From an uncultured Flavobacteriales bacterium (lineage in GTDB: Bacteria; Bacteroidota; Bacteroidia; Flavobacteriales; Schleiferiaceae): DNA of 64,000 bases. The DNA is taken from assembly GCA_913055685.1 (NCBI GenBank), contig CAJXKC010000002.1:186001-250000 (forward strand). Direction: 5' to 3'. The position numbers were made by a program, and so were the translations under genes. Positions within the stretch are counted from its first letter, which is position 1; each line of letters opens with the position of its first letter. Shown here piece by piece: positions 10,438-18,398 of the stretch. Below the pieces are notes generated by a model that saw nothing but the letters and a program-made list of their open reading frames with translations, made no database searches and had not been told where the DNA came from.

Positions 10438-10836
10438 ATGTTAAAAGACTTTGAAATTCAATCTACAGAGGGTATTGAAATTGCCATTGGGAAAACGCCA
10501 GATGAAAAAGGCGAAAGCACTTTTTTTCTTTACATCATCAATGAAAACCAATTCGCACTGCAAAACGTACTTATATTAACTGAAGCGCATGAAAATGAAG
10601 ACGGTAGTGGGAGAAAGACTTCGAAACTCCGTCATTTTAGAGAAGAGCTGGAAGCGAAGAGCCACGAAAAAATAGAAATAGTAGACCCTTCAGTTTTTGG
10701 CTTCTACAACCGTATTTGGTTGTCCTATTATGTGGATGGGACCATGCGTGATCGCCGCTTTATAATACGACCTTTCAAAGAATATGAATTGGAAGATATT
10801 GAGGCGATAGGTTTAAAAGGTAAAATAGCAGAATGA
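10438..10836 (+). CDS. Conserved hypothetical cytosolic protein
   Basis: 132 aa, no signal peptide or membrane segment. It is a compact alpha/beta-looking protein with alternating strands (ESTFFLYIINENQFALQNVL, RIWLSYYVDGTMRDRRFIIR) and an acidic C-terminus. I recognise no catalytic motif and do not name a function. It overlaps the lipoprotein gene at 10833 by 4 bases, so the two are probably translated together. Confidence 0.75.
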   Translation: MLKDFEIQSTEGIEIAIGKTPDEKGESTFFLYIINENQFALQNVLILTEAHENEDGSGRKTSKLRHFREELEAKSHEKIEIVDPSVFGFYNRIWLSYYVDGTMRDRRFIIRPFKEYELEDIEAIGLKGKIAE

Positions 10837-11357
10837 AAAATACCCTCCTATTTTTTATGGCCCTTTTGGCTCTAGGAGCTTGTTCAAAAAAGGATTTAGG
10901 CATTAGCTTTCGAATGAACTACGAAGAAGAAGTGGTGATTCCATCATCGGTTGGAATAAACCTACCTTTTACTATTCAGAGTCCGCCTATAACCACTAAC
11001 AGCGAAAGCAAGTTCAGCAATAACAATACCTCTGCAAATAGAGTGAGTAGTATTCGCTTAGAGGAAATGCAATTGATCCTGGATGAACCCTCAGAAGCAG
11101 ATTTTAGCTTTTTGGAATCCATTTACATCCTAATTAGTGCCCAAGGTTTACCCGACGACACCATCGCTTGGCAAGACCCCGTCACTAGCAATGCCAGTGT
11201 TTTAAACCTGACGACCACAGAGCTTAACTTAAAACCCTATTTGGTTAAGGATGAATTCAGTTTAAAAACAATTACACTTACCGACGAGTTTATTAGCGAG
11301 GATCATCGCATTACCATTAAAAGTGGTTTTCGCGTAGAGGCAGAGATTTTTAATTAA
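10833..11357 (+). CDS. Hypothetical lipoprotein
   Basis: 174 aa with a lipoprotein signal (MKNTLLFFMALLALGACSKK; lipid-modified cysteine at 17). The mature part is beta-rich with Ser/Asn/Thr-rich linkers (TNSESKFSNNNTSANRV) and resembles Bacteroidota surface or periplasmic lipoproteins of unknown role. It is cotranslated with the preceding gene and followed by the histidine-operon promoter. Confidence 0.75.
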   Translation: MKNTLLFFMALLALGACSKKDLGISFRMNYEEEVVIPSSVGINLPFTIQSPPITTNSESKFSNNNTSANRVSSIRLEEMQLILDEPSEADFSFLESIYILISAQGLPDDTIAWQDPVTSNASVLNLTTTELNLKPYLVKDEFSLKTITLTDEFISEDHRITIKSGFRVEAEIFN

Positions 11358-11360
11358 AAT

Positions 11361-11391
11361 TTGGAAAGTATTTTTTTGCGTAGTTATTTTG
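11361..11391 (+). promoter_or_regulatory. Promoter of the histidine operon
   Basis: TTG at 11361-11363, a 20-base spacer and TTATTTTG at 11384-11391 (one mismatch to TAnnTTTG). The predicted start of transcription falls within a few bases of the leader-peptide ATG at 11397, so the leader mRNA would have almost no 5' untranslated region. Confidence 0.6.
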
Positions 11392-11396
11392 AGCCC

Positions 11397-11453
11397 ATGT
11401 TCAAGCAGAAAAACCATCATCATCATTTTTCCACCGTCCACCATCACCGGTAG
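11397..11453 (+). CDS. hisL: Histidine operon leader peptide
   Basis: 18-codon open frame, MFKQKNHHHHFSTVHHHR then TAG, with 7 histidine codons in two runs (codons 7-10 and 15-17). It sits between a promoter and a terminator just ahead of hisG, the arrangement of classical attenuation leaders in enteric bacteria. When histidyl-tRNA is scarce the ribosome should stall in the CAT/CAC runs and let the downstream antiterminator form. Too short for automatic gene calling. The composition and position make chance very unlikely. Confidence 0.9.
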   Translation: MFKQKNHHHHFSTVHHHR

Positions 11454-11454
11454 A

Positions 11455-11493
11455 GGAATGCTTTGATGTATCTAATATTCATGAAGCCCATCC
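11455..11493 (+). promoter_or_regulatory. Candidate antiterminator of the histidine attenuator
   Basis: I can pair GGA-TG-CTTTG (11455-11465, one A bulged) with TGAAG-CA-TCC (11482-11493), which takes up the left arm of the terminator stem. The two structures are mutually exclusive, as attenuation needs. The pairing includes two G-U pairs and an internal loop, so it is a proposal made by eye. Confidence 0.5.
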
Positions 11494-11514
11494 AACCGGA
11501 TGGGCTTTTTTTTT
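11484..11514 (+). terminator. Attenuator terminator hairpin upstream of hisG
   Basis: Perfect 10-base stem AAGCCCATCC (11484-11493) / GGATGGGCTT (11498-11507), AACC loop, followed by a run of nine T. It lies 31 bases after the leader-peptide stop and 22 bases before hisG. Confidence 0.92.
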
Positions 11515-11536
11515 GCTCTAATTCCAAAAACCAAAA

Positions 11537-12394
11537 ATGAAATCACTAACTATTGCTCTGCAAAAGGGCGGCCGATTAAATGAAGAATCACTCAAACTTT
11601 TAAGGGACTGCGGTATCCGATTAAGCGTCGGTAGTCGAAAGCTAAAAAGTGAAGCCCAAAACTTTCCCCTTGAAATACTCTACCTCAGGGATGATGACAT
11701 TCCCCAATATGTAGAAGATGGAATTGCTGATGCGGGAATTCTTGGTTTGGATGTGATACGCGAAACCAAGAAAAATGTGAAGGAGGAGCTCGCTTTAGGT
11801 TTTTCCACTTGCCGCCTCTCTATAGCATTGGCAAAAGGCGACAATTACCAAGGAATATCCAGTTTGGAAGGAAAAACCATCGCCACTAGCTTCCCAAATT
11901 TATTGCGGGATTTCCTTGAGGCCAAGGGAGTTTCTGCAAATATTGAATACCTCAGCGGAAGTGTGGAGATTGCCCCGGGCATTGGTCTAGCGCAGGCCAT
12001 TTGCGATATAGTTTCCACCGGAAGTACATTGGTTATGAATGGCTTAAAAGAGGTGGAGGAAGTGCTTTATTCTGAAGCCACTTTAATAAGCAGGCCGGAC
12101 TTAAACCCTGAGCAGCAGTCGATTCTCGATAAACTGAAGTTTCGAATAGAAGCGGTTCGGCGCGCTAAAACCGGTAAGTATATTACTCTAAATGCACCGA
12201 ATAGTGCACTGGATGAAATACGCCAAATTTTACCGGGTTTAAAGAGTCCCACCATTATTCCCTTGGCCGATGACGATTGGTCGGCGGTACATACCGTAGT
12301 GGCCGAAAAAGACTTTTGGGACCGGATTGATCGTCTGAAAGACGCTGGGGCGGAAGGGATTTTAGTCTTACCGATTGAAAAGACCATATTATGA
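11537..12394 (+). CDS. hisG: ATP phosphoribosyltransferase, long form
   Basis: 285 aa. It catalyses the first, committed step of histidine synthesis (ATP + PRPP). The catalytic half has LTIALQKGGRL at the start, GIADAGILGLDV, and the PRPP-binding ICDIVSTGSTL. Residues about 215-285 form the ACT-like regulatory domain of the long form (IIPLADDDWSAVHTVV), so feedback by histidine without HisZ is expected. First structural gene after the attenuator; overlaps hisD by 4 bases. Confidence 0.97.
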   Translation: MKSLTIALQKGGRLNEESLKLLRDCGIRLSVGSRKLKSEAQNFPLEILYLRDDDIPQYVEDGIADAGILGLDVIRETKKNVKEELALGFSTCRLSIALAKGDNYQGISSLEGKTIATSFPNLLRDFLEAKGVSANIEYLSGSVEIAPGIGLAQAICDIVSTGSTLVMNGLKEVEEVLYSEATLISRPDLNPEQQSILDKLKFRIEAVRRAKTGKYITLNAPNSALDEIRQILPGLKSPTIIPLADDDWSAVHTVVAEKDFWDRIDRLKDAGAEGILVLPIEKTIL

Positions 12395-13674
12395 AAAGGC
12401 TTATCATTCCAGAACAAGCAGCATACCGACAAATCCGAAAGAGAAATGCGGTAGCCGATGCCGACCTCCAATTTGCGGTCGTAGAGATTATGGAGGCGGT
12501 AGCAAAGCAAGGTGATGAGGCTCTACGCTTTTACAATGAAAGGTTCGATGACTATATCGGAGACTTAAAGTTAGATCCAAAGCAAATAGATGAGGCTGAA
12601 GCTTTGATAGAAGAGAAGCTGAAAGAAGCTATCGACCGAGCCTATTTAAATATTTACAAATACCACAAAGCGCAAGAGCGAGCAGTAGAAAGAATCACTA
12701 CCTCTAAGGGGATTGAATGTTGGCGGGAAGCTCGGGCGATAGAAGCAGTAGGCTTATATGTGCCAGGCGGAACAGCCCCTCTATTTTCGACCGTTTTAAT
12801 GTTAGGCATACCTTCTCAAATTGCAGGTAATCCCAAGCGTGTTTTATGCAGTCCGGCAGGCAAGGACGGAGAAATACATCCTGCCATACTTTATGCGGCT
12901 AAAAAATGCGGAATTCGAGAGATTTTTAAAGTTGGCGGGGCGCAAGCGATTGCAGCGCTTAGTTTCGGAACCGAAAGCATACCAAAAGTGGATAAGGTTT
13001 TTGGTCCGGGGAATTCTTACGTTACCGAAGCCAAGCGACAGGCATTGGCCTACGGTCTAGCTATTGATATGCCCGCCGGACCCAGTGAAGTCTTGGTTAT
13101 TGCCGATGAAAAGGCCGAGGCCAGGGTGGTGGCGGCCGATTTACTTTCTCAGGCCGAACATGGTCCCGATTCTCAGGTAATTCTTATCAGCAACAGCGAA
13201 AACTTTTTGGATGAAGTGGATGGGGAATTAAGGTCTCTTTTACGCAATTTACCGCGCTCGGCATTTGCCCTATCAGCCCTCCAGCAAAGTTATTCCATTT
13301 ACTTCCCAAACCTAGAGCAGGCTTTCGAGTGCAGTAATTTCTATGCTCCCGAGCATTTAATATTAAATCTTGATAATGCCGAAAAATGGATCTCTAAGGT
13401 TAAAAGGGCCGGTTCCGTTTTCTTAGGTCCTTTTGCGGCCGAAAGCATGGGAGATTACGCTTCAGGTACCAATCATACTCTACCTACTGCAGCCTTCGCT
13501 CGAAATTACTCGGGACTTAGTTTGGAAAGTTTTCAGACCCAAATAAGCTTTCAAAATATCAATAAAGAGGGCTTAGCAGACTTGGGACCTTCGGTTAGCC
13601 TAATGGCGCGGGCCGAAGGTTTAGAAGCGCATGCCTTAGCGGTAGAGATCCGGTTAAAAAATGAGCGAATATGA
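12391..13674 (+). CDS. hisD: Histidinol dehydrogenase
   Basis: 427 aa, usual length. Oxidises L-histidinol to histidine in two NAD-dependent steps. Conserved segments include GLYVPGGTAPL, the GPGNSYVTEAKR nucleotide-binding region, DMPAGPSEVLVIAD, the zinc-site QAEHGPDSQ with Gln and His ligands, and FYAPEHLIL with the catalytic Glu-His. ATGA overlaps with both hisG and hisC indicate coupled translation. Confidence 0.97.
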   Translation: MKRLIIPEQAAYRQIRKRNAVADADLQFAVVEIMEAVAKQGDEALRFYNERFDDYIGDLKLDPKQIDEAEALIEEKLKEAIDRAYLNIYKYHKAQERAVERITTSKGIECWREARAIEAVGLYVPGGTAPLFSTVLMLGIPSQIAGNPKRVLCSPAGKDGEIHPAILYAAKKCGIREIFKVGGAQAIAALSFGTESIPKVDKVFGPGNSYVTEAKRQALAYGLAIDMPAGPSEVLVIADEKAEARVVAADLLSQAEHGPDSQVILISNSENFLDEVDGELRSLLRNLPRSAFALSALQQSYSIYFPNLEQAFECSNFYAPEHLILNLDNAEKWISKVKRAGSVFLGPFAAESMGDYASGTNHTLPTAAFARNYSGLSLESFQTQISFQNINKEGLADLGPSVSLMARAEGLEAHALAVEIRLKNERI

Positions 13675-14702
13675 GTTTCAATCTAGAAAAATTAATCCGA
13701 CCCAATATTGCCACTATGAATGCGTACAGCTCGGCAAGAAAGGAGTTTGAAGGCGCGGCAAGTATCTTTTTAGACGCTAATGAAAGTCCTTTTGACAATG
13801 GTATAAATCGCTATCCCCCTAGTGATCCCCTTCCTATTCGAAAGGCCCTAGCGGAGGAGAAAGGGCTCTCTCCCCTACAAATAGCATTAGGTAATGGCAG
13901 TGATGAGATTATTGACCTTTTAATGCGTGCCTTTGCTCGGCCCGGTACCGATAAGGTTGCCAGCTTAGAACCTAGTTATGGCATGTACCCCATAACAGCA
14001 GCGCTTAATGATTTAAGCTATGTTGGCGTAAAGAGTGGTGCTGATTTTAATTTAAATCAGGCTCAGCTCAAGGAGTTTTTAAAGATTGAAAACTTAAGCT
14101 TGATTTTTCTTTGTAGTCCTAATAATCCTACTGGGAATAACTTGGACCGCGGGGCAATAGAATTGCTATTGAATAAATTTTCGGGTTTAGTAATCGTAGA
14201 TGAAGCCTATATAGACTTCTGTCCGGAAAAGTCCTTAATAGACTGGTTGGATCAATACCCTAATCTGGTAATAATCCAAACTTTTAGCAAGGCGAGGGGG
14301 GCGGCTGGAATTCGAATGGGGATGATGTATGCTTCCCAGGAGATTGTGGCCATTATTCAAAAAATAAAACCTCCCTATAATCTGAGTAGTCTGAGTCAGG
14401 CTGAAGCACTAAAGCTTCTAGCTTCAAACGCTTGGAAGGCGAAACGCCAACAAATCATCGCGGAAAGGGAACGATTAAGCAAGACTTTAACTGAATTAGA
14501 ATATGTGGAGCAGGTTTTTCCTTCCGAAGCCAATTTCGTTCTGTTTACCAGTTCTAAAGCATCGCAATTGTTTCAGTATTTGAAAAGCTTAGGAATAATA
14601 ATTCGAGATCGACAAAATCAAATAGACCAGGCCTTGCGGATAAGCATAGGTTCTCCTTTACAGATGGATCAACTTATTAAGGCCTTAAAAGAATTTGCAT
14701 GA
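13671..14702 (+). CDS. hisC: Histidinol-phosphate aminotransferase
   Basis: 343 aa class I/II PLP aminotransferase converting imidazole-acetol phosphate to histidinol phosphate. It shows DANESPFDNG near the N-terminus, LGNGSDEIIDLL, the SPNNPTGN motif, VIVDEAYIDF with the PLP-contacting Asp, and the Schiff-base lysine in TFSKARGAAGIRMG. Overlaps both neighbours by 4 bases within the operon. Confidence 0.96.
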   Translation: MSFNLEKLIRPNIATMNAYSSARKEFEGAASIFLDANESPFDNGINRYPPSDPLPIRKALAEEKGLSPLQIALGNGSDEIIDLLMRAFARPGTDKVASLEPSYGMYPITAALNDLSYVGVKSGADFNLNQAQLKEFLKIENLSLIFLCSPNNPTGNNLDRGAIELLLNKFSGLVIVDEAYIDFCPEKSLIDWLDQYPNLVIIQTFSKARGAAGIRMGMMYASQEIVAIIQKIKPPYNLSSLSQAEALKLLASNAWKAKRQQIIAERERLSKTLTELEYVEQVFPSEANFVLFTSSKASQLFQYLKSLGIIIRDRQNQIDQALRISIGSPLQMDQLIKALKEFA

Positions 14703-15784
14703 AAAAAGTACTCTTTATAGATCGTGATGGAACGATTATAATAGAACCAGAAGATTTTCAGATAGATAGCTTTGAAAAGCTAAAGTTCTATCCGGGCGCG
14801 ATTTCAGCTTTGATGACATTGGCCAGACGCGGGGAATACGAGTTGGTAATGGTTTCAAATCAGGATGGTTTAGGAACCGCATCATTCCCTGAAGAAGATT
14901 TCTGGCCGGTCCAAAACTTCATAATCGAGACCTTAAAAAGCGAAGGGGTTAATTTTAGTGAGATTTTAATTGACCCCAGTTTGCCGGAAGAGAATTCACC
15001 CAATCGCAAGCCTGGCATAGGAATGCTAAAGCACTATTTAAAAGGAGATTACGATTTGGCGAATAGTTTTGTGTTGGGAGACCGTAAAAGTGATGTAGAG
15101 CTGGCTAGAAATTTAGGGGCTAAAGCTATTTACCTAGGAGACGAGAAGGTAAACGCCGATCTACAAAGCAAGAACTGGACTGAGATTGTCTCTTTTCTGC
15201 TAAACAATGATCGACGGGTCAGAATACAAAGACTTACTAATGAAACCCAGATTGACCTTTATCTAAATCTAGATGGTACTGGTTCTGCAGAAGTATCTAC
15301 CGGCATTGCATTTTTTGACCATATGTTGGATCAAATTGCTCGCCATGGCTCCATCGACCTAAAAATAAACTGCCAAGGTGACCTTGAAGTGGATGAGCAT
15401 CATAGCATTGAAGATGTAGGATTGGCACTAGGAGAGGCTTTCCGTAAAGCGCTGGCATCCAAAAAGGGTCTTGAACGCTACGCCTTTGTTCTACCGATGG
15501 ATGAGGCTCAGGCCCTAGTAGCAATTGACTTTGGAGGAAGACCATATTTTAGATGGGAGGCCGATTTTAAAAGAGAGTATGTGGGCAAAATGCCAACCGA
15601 AATGTTTTCCCACTTTTTTAAGTCATTTAGCGATACAGCGGCTTGCACGCTGCACATTAAGGCCGATGGCGTTAATGAACACCATAAGATCGAAGCCATT
15701 TTTAAGGGATTTGCTAGAGTTTTGGCGCAAGCCAGCCAAAGAAATGCAAGTGGAAAAATACCATCAACCAAAGGAAGCTTATGA
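14699..15784 (+). CDS. hisB: Bifunctional histidinol-phosphatase / imidazoleglycerol-phosphate dehydratase
   Basis: 361 aa fusion. Residues 1-165 are a HAD phosphatase (nucleophile motif DRDGT at 7-11, SNQDGLGT, and LGDRKSDVELA). Residues 175-361 are the dehydratase, with manganese-binding HHSIEDVG and FFDHMLDQIARHG near the start and EHHKIEAIFKGFARVL near the end. In E. coli the phosphatase half has a zinc loop with Cys-His-Cys-Cys before RKP. Here the same stretch reads LIDPSLPEENSPNRKP, with no cysteine or histidine, so the structural zinc is lost. Start overlaps hisC by 4 bases. Confidence 0.96.
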   Translation: MKKVLFIDRDGTIIIEPEDFQIDSFEKLKFYPGAISALMTLARRGEYELVMVSNQDGLGTASFPEEDFWPVQNFIIETLKSEGVNFSEILIDPSLPEENSPNRKPGIGMLKHYLKGDYDLANSFVLGDRKSDVELARNLGAKAIYLGDEKVNADLQSKNWTEIVSFLLNNDRRVRIQRLTNETQIDLYLNLDGTGSAEVSTGIAFFDHMLDQIARHGSIDLKINCQGDLEVDEHHSIEDVGLALGEAFRKALASKKGLERYAFVLPMDEAQALVAIDFGGRPYFRWEADFKREYVGKMPTEMFSHFFKSFSDTAACTLHIKADGVNEHHKIEAIFKGFARVLAQASQRNASGKIPSTKGSL

Positions 15785-16359
15785 TTGCCGTGGTAGATTA
15801 TAATGCGGGCAATACTCGCTCATTGATGAATAGACTGCAAGATTTAGGCATTAAAGCCACATTGACTAAGGATGCTGATGTAATTGCCCAAGCTTCAAAG
15901 GTTATTTTCCCGGGAGTAGGAGCAGCAAAAGCAGCTATGTCTAGCCTGCAGGCAGCCGACCTAGAAGACTGCTTAAAGAGCTATAAAAAGCCGTTTTTAG
16001 GAATCTGTCTAGGTATGCAGCTCATGGGTGAACACAGCGAAGAAGGCGATCAAAGCCTATTAGGGCTACTAGATTTCGAAGTGCAGGAATTTAAAGGGGT
16101 ACCCAAAGTTCCTCATATGGGGTGGAACTCTATCTTTAATTTAAAAGGTCCTCTCTACAGAGGCTTAGCCGAAAAGGCAGACCTATATTTTGTGCACTCC
16201 TATTATGTTCCGCTAAGTGATTTTAGTTCTGCTGGCTGTAACTATGGAATAGACTTTAGCGCTGGCCTGGAAAGAGATAATTTCTTCGGTTGTCAGTTTC
16301 ACCCCGAGAAAAGTGGACCGGCCGGTAGTTTAATTCTGAAAAACTTTGCGGCGCTATGA
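15781..16359 (+). CDS. hisH: Imidazole glycerol phosphate synthase, glutaminase subunit
   Basis: 192 aa class I glutamine amidotransferase. The catalytic cysteine is C76 in FLGICLGMQ, and the His-Glu pair is in CQFHPEKSG near residue 180. It supplies ammonia to HisF for ring closure. Other family marks are IFPGVGAAKAAM and VPHMGWNS. ATGA overlap with hisB and with hisA. Confidence 0.97.
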   Translation: MIAVVDYNAGNTRSLMNRLQDLGIKATLTKDADVIAQASKVIFPGVGAAKAAMSSLQAADLEDCLKSYKKPFLGICLGMQLMGEHSEEGDQSLLGLLDFEVQEFKGVPKVPHMGWNSIFNLKGPLYRGLAEKADLYFVHSYYVPLSDFSSAGCNYGIDFSAGLERDNFFGCQFHPEKSGPAGSLILKNFAAL

Positions 16360-17060
16360 TTCGAATAATACCAGCTATAGATATCATTGGGGGAGAAGCG
16401 ATTCGTTTGCAGCAAGGCGACTTTAATAGACAAAGTCGGATTGCAGAATCACTTCCTAATTTGGTTACCGCTGTGAAAAATGCCGGTTTAAAGGATTTGC
16501 ACTTAGTTAACCTTTCTGCCGCTAAGGAAGGTCGGCTAAGAGATTTGGATTTAATCGCCGAAATAGCCTCTAGTGGATTAAAGGTAGATTACGGTGGCGG
16601 CATCCGCAGCATAGAAGATGTAGAGCTGCTCTTTGATTTGGGAATTGCGGAAGTTAATGTGGGTTCAATGATTCTCAAAGAGCCCCAAGTGTTTGAAAGC
16701 ATCTTGAAGAAATATCCAAACCGCCTAATTGCGTCCCTGGATGTTAAGAACGAAAAGATAGCGGTAAATGCTTGGCAGGAGCAAAGTGAAATAAGCATTT
16801 ACCTACTACTGGAAAAATACCGCGCTTTAGGTTTAAAAAAGGTTTGTGTTACCGATATCGCAAAAGATGGGATGATGGCAGGCCCCTCGCTAGATCTTTA
16901 CCAGAGCCTATTAAATGCTTTTCCAGATTTGGAGCTTGTTGCCTCTGGCGGGGTCCGTAATAGGCAAGATGTTTTGGCCTTGAATGACATTGGTTGTGAG
17001 TCGGTAGTCATAGGGAAGGCCTGGTTAAGTGGTGCAATTCAACTGAAGGATTTATGCTGA
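16356..17060 (+). CDS. hisA: ProFAR isomerase (phosphoribosylformimino-AICAR-phosphate isomerase)
   Basis: 234 aa TIM barrel doing the Amadori isomerisation ProFAR to PRFAR. Catalytic aspartates are expected at D9 (IPAIDIIGG) and in IASLDVKNE. Phosphate-binding VDYGGGIRS and ASGGVRN loops are present. It shows the half-barrel repeat it shares with hisF. Overlaps hisH by 4 bases and hisF by 7. Confidence 0.96.
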   Translation: MIRIIPAIDIIGGEAIRLQQGDFNRQSRIAESLPNLVTAVKNAGLKDLHLVNLSAAKEGRLRDLDLIAEIASSGLKVDYGGGIRSIEDVELLFDLGIAEVNVGSMILKEPQVFESILKKYPNRLIASLDVKNEKIAVNAWQEQSEISIYLLLEKYRALGLKKVCVTDIAKDGMMAGPSLDLYQSLLNAFPDLELVASGGVRNRQDVLALNDIGCESVVIGKAWLSGAIQLKDLC

Positions 17061-17809
17061 AGAAAAGGATTATCCCCTGTTTAGATATTAAAGAGGGTAG
17101 AACGGTAAAAGGTACCAATTTTAAAGACCTAAGGGATGCCGGTGATGCGGTGGAGTTAGCGGCACTTTATGCGGAAAAGGGAGCCGATGAACTGGTCTTT
17201 CTGGACATCAGCGCAAGCTTGGAAAATCGTTCAACTTTAATTGAGCTATGTGAACGAGTAGCAGCAGTGATTGATATTCCCTTCACCGTTGGCGGTGGAA
17301 TTGGAAGCCTTAAAGATGCGACAAGGCTTCTAGAAGCGGGTGCCGATAAGATTAGTATAAACTCGGCGGCCTTAAGACGGCCAGAATTAGTAGACGAATT
17401 AGCTCAAGAATTTGGAAAACAGTTTATCACTGTGGCGATTGACTCCAAATGGGATCAAGACCAATTCGCCGTATTTAGTCACGGTGGTACCCGACGTACG
17501 CCGAGAGAACTTAGGGAGTGGGTGCAAGAACTTGAATCGCGAGGGGCGGGTGAGATTTTGCTCACCTCCATGCAGGGCGACGGTACCAAGGAGGGATTCG
17601 ATTTGCCGATGTATAGGCAGCTTGCAGATATTCAAATACCCCTAATTGCTTCTGGTGGGGCGGGTTGCAAAGAGCATTTTCTTGAAGTCTTGCGAATGCC
17701 ACAGGTAGACGCCGCCTTAGCGGCTAGTCTATTTCATTTTAAGGAACTCGCAATAGGCGATTTAAAAAGCTATTTAAACGAAAATAAAATACCTATACGA
17801 CATGCTTGA
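17054..17809 (+). CDS. hisF: Imidazole glycerol phosphate synthase, cyclase subunit
   Basis: 251 aa TIM barrel paired with HisH. Catalytic aspartates lie in IPCLDIKEG (D11) and VAIDSKWD. Phosphate loops [10 protein letters not shown] and [12 protein letters not shown] are visible. It makes imidazole glycerol phosphate and AICAR, linking histidine and purine synthesis. Overlaps hisIE by 8 bases. Confidence 0.97.
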
Positions 17810-18398
17810 TTTTGAAAAAGGAAAGGGTTTAGTGCCAGCCATTGTCCAAGATTATCGGGATGGTCGAGTTTTGATGCTTGGCTATCTCAATGAAGAAAGT
17901 TGGGCAAAAACCTTGGCAGAAAAAAAAGTTTGCTTCTACAGTCGGTCAAAAAAACGACTTTGGACTAAAGGGGAAAGCAGCGGTAATTTTTTGCATTTAG
18001 TAGATTATAAGATCGATTGTGATCAAGACACCTTATTGCTATTGGTTGAGCCAGCTGGAAAGGTTTGCCATACTGGAACTGACACTTGTTTTGGTGAGCA
18101 GTCGAGTTTTAACTTTATTCCGCGTTTAGAGGCCATTATAGAGGACCGTATTCGCGATAAAATGGAAGGGAGTTACACCCTTGCTCTTTTAGACCAAGGT
18201 ATAAACAAAGTAGCCCAAAAAGTTGGTGAAGAAGCAGTTGAAACGGTGATTGAAGCCTTAGGTGAAGACCAAGAAGCTATGATTAACGAATCGGCAGATT
18301 TACTTTTTCACTTTACTTTATTGTTGAAAGCCAAAGGACTTTCATTTAGCCAAATTGAAAGTCGCCTGGCAGAACGACACCAAGCGGCTCAGAAATAG
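17802..18398 (+). CDS. hisIE: Bifunctional phosphoribosyl-AMP cyclohydrolase / phosphoribosyl-ATP pyrophosphatase
   Basis: 198 aa fusion. The HisI half (1-105) has LMLGYLNEESW, the FYSRSKKRLWTKGESSGN block, and metal-binding DCDQDTLLL with cysteines in VCHTGTDTCF. The HisE half has DKMEGSYTLALLDQGINKVA then KVGEEAVETVIEAL and ESADLLFHF. It does steps two and three of the pathway and closes the operon. I see no clear hairpin terminator before mdh. Confidence 0.97.
   Translation: MLDFEKGKGLVPAIVQDYRDGRVLMLGYLNEESWAKTLAEKKVCFYSRSKKRLWTKGESSGNFLHLVDYKIDCDQDTLLLLVEPAGKVCHTGTDTCFGEQSSFNFIPRLEAIIEDRIRDKMEGSYTLALLDQGINKVAQKVGEEAVETVIEALGEDQEAMINESADLLFHFTLLLKAKGLSFSQIESRLAERHQAAQK

Follow-up and report, generated by a model that had tools for sequence, protein, structure and literature searches.

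A probable histidine attenuator with a promoter-near leader upstream of hisG in an uncultured Flavobacteriales bacterium, and its counterparts in the Bacteroidota

The stretch of DNA analysed here (the window, 64,000 nucleotides from an uncultured Flavobacteriales bacterium) carries a complete hisGDCBHAFI(E) operon on its forward strand: hisG (11537..12394; TIGR00070, 188.5 bits) is followed by hisD, hisC, a bifunctional hisB, hisH, hisA, hisF and hisIE (12391..18398), all of which were identified by NCBIfam matches, that of hisA (TIGR00007, 211.5 bits) being slightly below the cut-off of 228.95. Just upstream is an open reading frame (ORF) at 10833-11357; its N-terminus (MKNTLLFFMALLALGACSKK) is lipoprotein-like, and an NCBIfam search gave no match for it. 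Directly before the operon lie a short leader peptide ORF and an intrinsic terminator, so that hisG, with its start at 11537, stands behind them as the original prediction had stated, and the whole operon follows.

The leader peptide ORF (11397..11453, forward strand) was read directly as MFKQKNHHHHFSTVHHHR plus a stop codon, and it has His-rich counterparts at related loci. It runs from an ATG at 11397 to a TAG stop at 11451-11453 and contains the 18 codons, 7 of them for His, that were first described. The His codons fall into two runs, four CAT codons at 11415-11426 and CAC CAT CAC at 11439-11447. Against the His frequency of his-operon proteins as background, the binomial chance of at least 7 His in 17 codons is 9e-10, and the whole 2.96-Mb genome contains only 12 occurrences of four consecutive CAY codons on both strands. 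The stem of the terminator (the 3:4 hairpin; 11483..11514, forward strand) starts thirty bases past the leader ORF. Its arms, AAGCCCATCC/AACC/GGATGGGCTT, form ten perfect pairs (11484-11493 with 11498-11507) around a 4-base loop, and nine T follow at 11506-11514; the perfect 10-base stem and T run of the original prediction were both evident on direct reading, and a terminator scan also found them.

Region 11397-11516 folds much more stably than shuffled sequences do (z = -5.4). Without a ribosome, folding predicts a protector (1:2) hairpin (11415..11468, forward strand) in which 11415-11436 pairs with 11448-11468 and the antiterminator segment is hidden. In a model of the stalled ribosome with the leading edge set 12 nt beyond the A site, a ribosome on His codons 1-4 is predicted to permit an antiterminator (2:3; 11447..11499, forward strand) built in part from the terminator's 5' arm and loop. 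In it, CCGGU (11447-11451) pairs with ACCGG (11495-11499), GGA (11455-11457) with UCC (11491-11493) and GCUUU (11460-11464) with GAAGC (11483-11487), and GAUGU/AUAUU adds to the pairing. The predicted stability of the antiterminator falls from -14.2 kcal/mol with the ribosome on His1-4 to -7.0 on His5-6, -3.9 on His7 and -0.5 at the stop codon, and the ranking of ribosome positions is the same for footprints of 8-16 nt. Occlusion of the terminator 5' arm is 0.70 at His1, 0.24 at the stop codon and 0.23 without a ribosome. The first His run is the likely main stall site, and stalling at the second would give a weaker antiterminator. As to the antiterminator that had been built by hand in the original prediction, the folding model gives a structure that would exclude the terminator, according to the position of the ribosome. 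In favour of this structure, no more than 6 of 83 foreign upstream segments equal the window's own in fitting the window terminator. For the window alone the margins of the shuffle and swap comparisons are nevertheless modest: the terminator arm was occluded equally well in 22 of 500 shuffles of the exposed segment, and foreign terminators reach the value of the window in 8.5%. Because of the shuffles that match it, the window by itself is suggestive, and the case is made by its relatives.

Loci containing hisG were taken from GTDB genomes, from the same family and order, and from an even sampling of the phylum. A His-rich leader is found ahead of hisG at nearly all free-living Flavobacteriales and Chitinophagales loci, and at 49 of the 60 loci in the phylum-wide sample; at one locus (L102) the script called no leader, yet the sequence has a short ORF with HPVHH. 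The loci include two main sequence classes, a Flavobacteriales type (terminator CCGTCTGAG, leader end CTCAGGCG) and a Chitinophagales type (terminator GGCTTACC, with GGTAGGC or GGTAAGC at the leader end and stop), and the terminator of the window falls outside both. In the tests of folding contrast, swapping and pairing, none of which is independent of shared ancestry, folding placed the terminator arm in a more occluded state when the ribosome was at the first His codon than when it was at the stop codon at 83 of 84 related loci, the upstream segment fitted its own terminator better than terminators of the other class at 76 of 82 loci, and the antiterminator helix was 91.6% paired in 37 aligned Flavobacteriales-type loci versus 20-49% when slid. 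Six sequences of this alignment share a double change from G-C to A-U, which occurred in none of 500 shuffles; of the eight pairs in the antiterminator, a single one shows compensatory change. The covariation that had been sought in relatives was found, antiterminator and terminator changing together, and the His codons are kept together with the hairpin, a hairpin conserved without them having been the alternative outcome. The attenuator layout that was noted in this genome is present, but it is not peculiar to it, being general in the phylum. Close sequence comparison is precluded because all six genomes of the same genus (G014-G019) lack hisG, as does most of the family (f1), and the his operon is accordingly patchy in the family; in a HisG tree built as a check for horizontal transfer, the branch of the window is very long and its placement unsure.

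These comparisons bear on two other explanations of the locus. The upstream ORF is on the same strand and ends (at 11357) 40 bases ahead of the leader, as would be expected if the hairpin were merely the terminator of that gene and the His-rich ORF had arisen by chance; the recurrence of His leader and terminator at hisG throughout the phylum, and a probability of about 1e-9 for the His content, make this extremely improbable. Nearly as improbable is some other form of cis-acting RNA control (a T-box, a metabolite riboswitch or a protein-binding leader) that incidentally holds a short ORF. T-boxes do control histidine genes in Firmicutes and Actinobacteria (PMC9413887), but the His codons here are conserved, and neither the window nor the his leaders from 14 relatives matched any Rfam family at gathering score. 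Conservation was the ground on which the T-box and chance-terminator readings were rejected.

Some relatives possess variations on the terminator region. At Flavobacteriales-type loci (L086, L077, L014, L089, L096 and others), a third copy of the element, TTTACTCAGAC, is located directly before hisG, between the gene and the terminator, and can pair with the 5' arm and loop of the terminator (GTCTGAGTAAA) by complementarity; its longest exact complement averages 8.2 nt, versus 4.4 nt in shuffles. Neither the window nor the Chitinophagales-type loci show such a copy. In readthrough RNA, this third copy might provide a further control over the translation of hisG. At the Cytophagales-type loci (L009, L060, L068, L073, L080 and L147) the leaders are longer and hold two His clusters, and a search for a T-tailed terminator before hisG found none in these six; the stop codon of the leader sits inside a hairpin (TTCCTC/GGAGGAA) in L060 and L073.

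The promoter that had been placed before the leader is the weakest part of the prediction: a scan for sigma-70 promoters found none, and the best candidates for the -7 box of Bacteroidota in the window are all imperfect with respect to TAnnTTTG. Two relatives of the same family have perfect boxes. The candidate nearest the leader, TTATTTTG (11384..11391, forward strand), has one mismatch and ends 5 nt ahead of the ATG. With the spacing of 4-5 nt between box and start site that was measured in Flavobacterium johnsoniae (PMC6847099), it would put the transcript start at 11396-11397. The overlapping TATTTTGA (11385-11392) is also similar to SM5, a box with shorter spacing in F. psychrophilum (PMC9723704). 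From two other boxes that are equally imperfect, TTTTTTTG (11371-11378) and AAAATTTG (11356-11363), the 5' UTR would be about 13 or 28 nt long. In the same-family loci L083 (TATATTTG) and L084 (TACATTTG), perfect boxes are exactly 5 nt before the leader ATG, at the place of the imperfect box of the window, and TTATTTTGAGCCCATG and TACATTTGGCCCCATG align.

A TAnnTTTG box stands no more than 60 nt from the ATG in 118 of the 146 his leaders, with a median gap of 10 nt; the gap is at most 12 nt in 73 leaders and 4-5 nt in 18, and the predicted 5' UTR is about 0-16 nt for most. A perfect box lies 2-12 nt before the ATG in 64% of leaders versus 0.2% of all ATGs at the same loci, the former value being slightly biased upward by the choice of the better-boxed start wherever a leader had several. 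Ordinary ORFs with a box have a median gap of 19 nt (n = 18) and differ from leaders in the frequency of gaps of at most 12 nt (Fisher p = 0.002, the loci not being independent). Since two of the 18 likewise have a gap of 4 nt, the promoter-near layout is enriched at his leaders rather than exclusive to them.

A his attenuator with an ordinary leadered mRNA, transcribed from AAAATTTG or TTTTTTTG with a 5' UTR of 13-28 nt and nothing unusual about initiation, is a possible but rather unlikely alternative. Both boxes score equal to or above TTATTTTG, and many Flavobacteriales leaders lie 16-20 nt from the box, which corresponds to a 5' UTR of about 11-16 nt. Leadered mRNAs are also the majority in Bacteroidota (PMC6847099, PMC9723704, PMC7366714): transcripts with leaders longer than 10 nt make up 87% in F. 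johnsoniae (PMC6847099), leaderless mRNAs 5.5% in F. psychrophilum (PMC9723704), and 5' UTRs shorter than 10 nt about 3.7% in Bacteroides thetaiotaomicron (PMC7366714). On the other side, the consensus TA is incomplete in both upstream boxes, and the perfect boxes of L083 and L084, with the alignment noted above, favour the position 5 nt from the ATG. We consider it fairly probable, from these sequence comparisons, that the leader of the window starts leaderless; because its own -7 box is imperfect, the exact start is predicted by analogy with the relatives. The proposal that the leader begins close to the transcript start thus draws strength from L083, L084 and the box spacing, and is tempered by the imperfect box of the window and the rival boxes upstream. 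As to whether transcription might begin far from the leader ATG, the predicted start is at or a few nucleotides from it in the two same-family relatives, and box spacing places it a short distance upstream in most others.

In the reduced genomes (about 600 kb) of seven members of the same order (L095, L099, L106-L110), a TATATTTG box and a AAGCTTAC/GTAAGCTT terminator are both retained before hisG, but the leader, a short way past the box, has shrunk to ATG-CAT-TAA (Met-His-stop) or, in sisters, has decayed (ATA CAT). The His leaders of three distant members of the phylum (L182, L195 and L196) apparently begin with GTG, and this start lies 4 nt past the end of a perfect box in L195 and L196.

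Leader, terminator, operon, folding contrast, and phylogenetic co-occurrence and co-change together indicate that the element in the window very probably controls the his operon by ribosome-mediated transcription attenuation. The transcript start, the translation of the leader and the response to histidine are the parts of this reading that we infer. RNA polymerase would start at or a few bases from the leader AUG, and a ribosome would load on the nearly leaderless 5' end and trail the polymerase. When charged tRNA-His is short, the ribosome would stall at the first His run and break the protector hairpin, whereupon 11447-11469 could pair with the terminator 5' arm and loop and transcription would continue into hisG. 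When histidine is plentiful, a ribosome at the stop codon would cover the antiterminator segment, the terminator would form and transcription would stop; if no ribosome had loaded, the protector hairpin and the terminator would both form. By this means the cell probably restricts histidine synthesis to times of shortage.

The comparisons give good support to his attenuation of a known type that is phylum-wide in Bacteroidota and has no Rfam match. Textbook his attenuation is thereby extended to an entire phylum that differs from Escherichia coli in its promoters and translation starts, and the more than 100 loci could serve as the seed of an Rfam family. Should the leaderless layout prove true, these loci would be a natural system in which to study how a ribosome is kept in time with RNA polymerase when both a Shine-Dalgarno site and a 5' UTR are absent. 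A literature search found no paper naming a his attenuator in Bacteroidota. Vitreschak et al. (2004) reportedly mention attenuators in Bacteroidetes/Chlorobi.

The enteric hisL of E. coli and Salmonella encodes an 18-amino-acid leader with seven consecutive His (PMC3896937). The window resembles it in having a short leader with 7 His in 18 codons upstream of hisG and mutually exclusive protector, antiterminator and terminator hairpins. The window differs in that its His codons are split four and three, its antiterminator takes in the end and stop codon of the leader ORF, its 5' UTR is predicted to be nearly absent, and a Bacteroidota -7 box takes the place of a sigma-70 promoter. The textbook enteric layout that had been claimed therefore holds for the regulatory logic and not at the level of the enteric Rfam model: His_leader (RF00514) has no match in the window at gathering score or among hits to E 10, and sub-threshold Rfam hits (E up to 10) are dominated by the terminator hairpin.

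Closer by phylum is the Bacteroid-trp leader, a curated Trp leader of Bacteroidota (RF01692; PMC2864571), which likewise has a run of cognate codons (WWW), a terminator and a TAnnTTTG box near the leader ATG, but Trp for His and a different sequence; its covariance model has no match in the window, and none was found in this genome. Leader-peptide attenuation of amino-acid operons, the same mechanism in the same phylum, is reported as likely in F. psychrophilum (PMC9723704), in passages that mention neither his nor how long the 5' UTRs of the leaders are. Amino-acid attenuator leaders of Bacteroidota (his and seemingly trp) may perhaps be leaderless or nearly so through selection, because a first ribosome that loads as the 5' end emerges would stay in close step with the polymerase in a phylum without Shine-Dalgarno sites; we offer this tentatively. 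The trpL of Sinorhizobium meliloti is a leader-peptide attenuator whose RNA begins at the leader ATG (PMC7298713), but it is alphaproteobacterial, is a Trp leader and is unrelated in sequence. The near-leaderless layout is common to some ordinary genes, Bacteroid-trp leaders and Sinorhizobium trpL, and is therefore not unique; the least expected feature of the his attenuators is that the promoter-near leader is phylum-wide.
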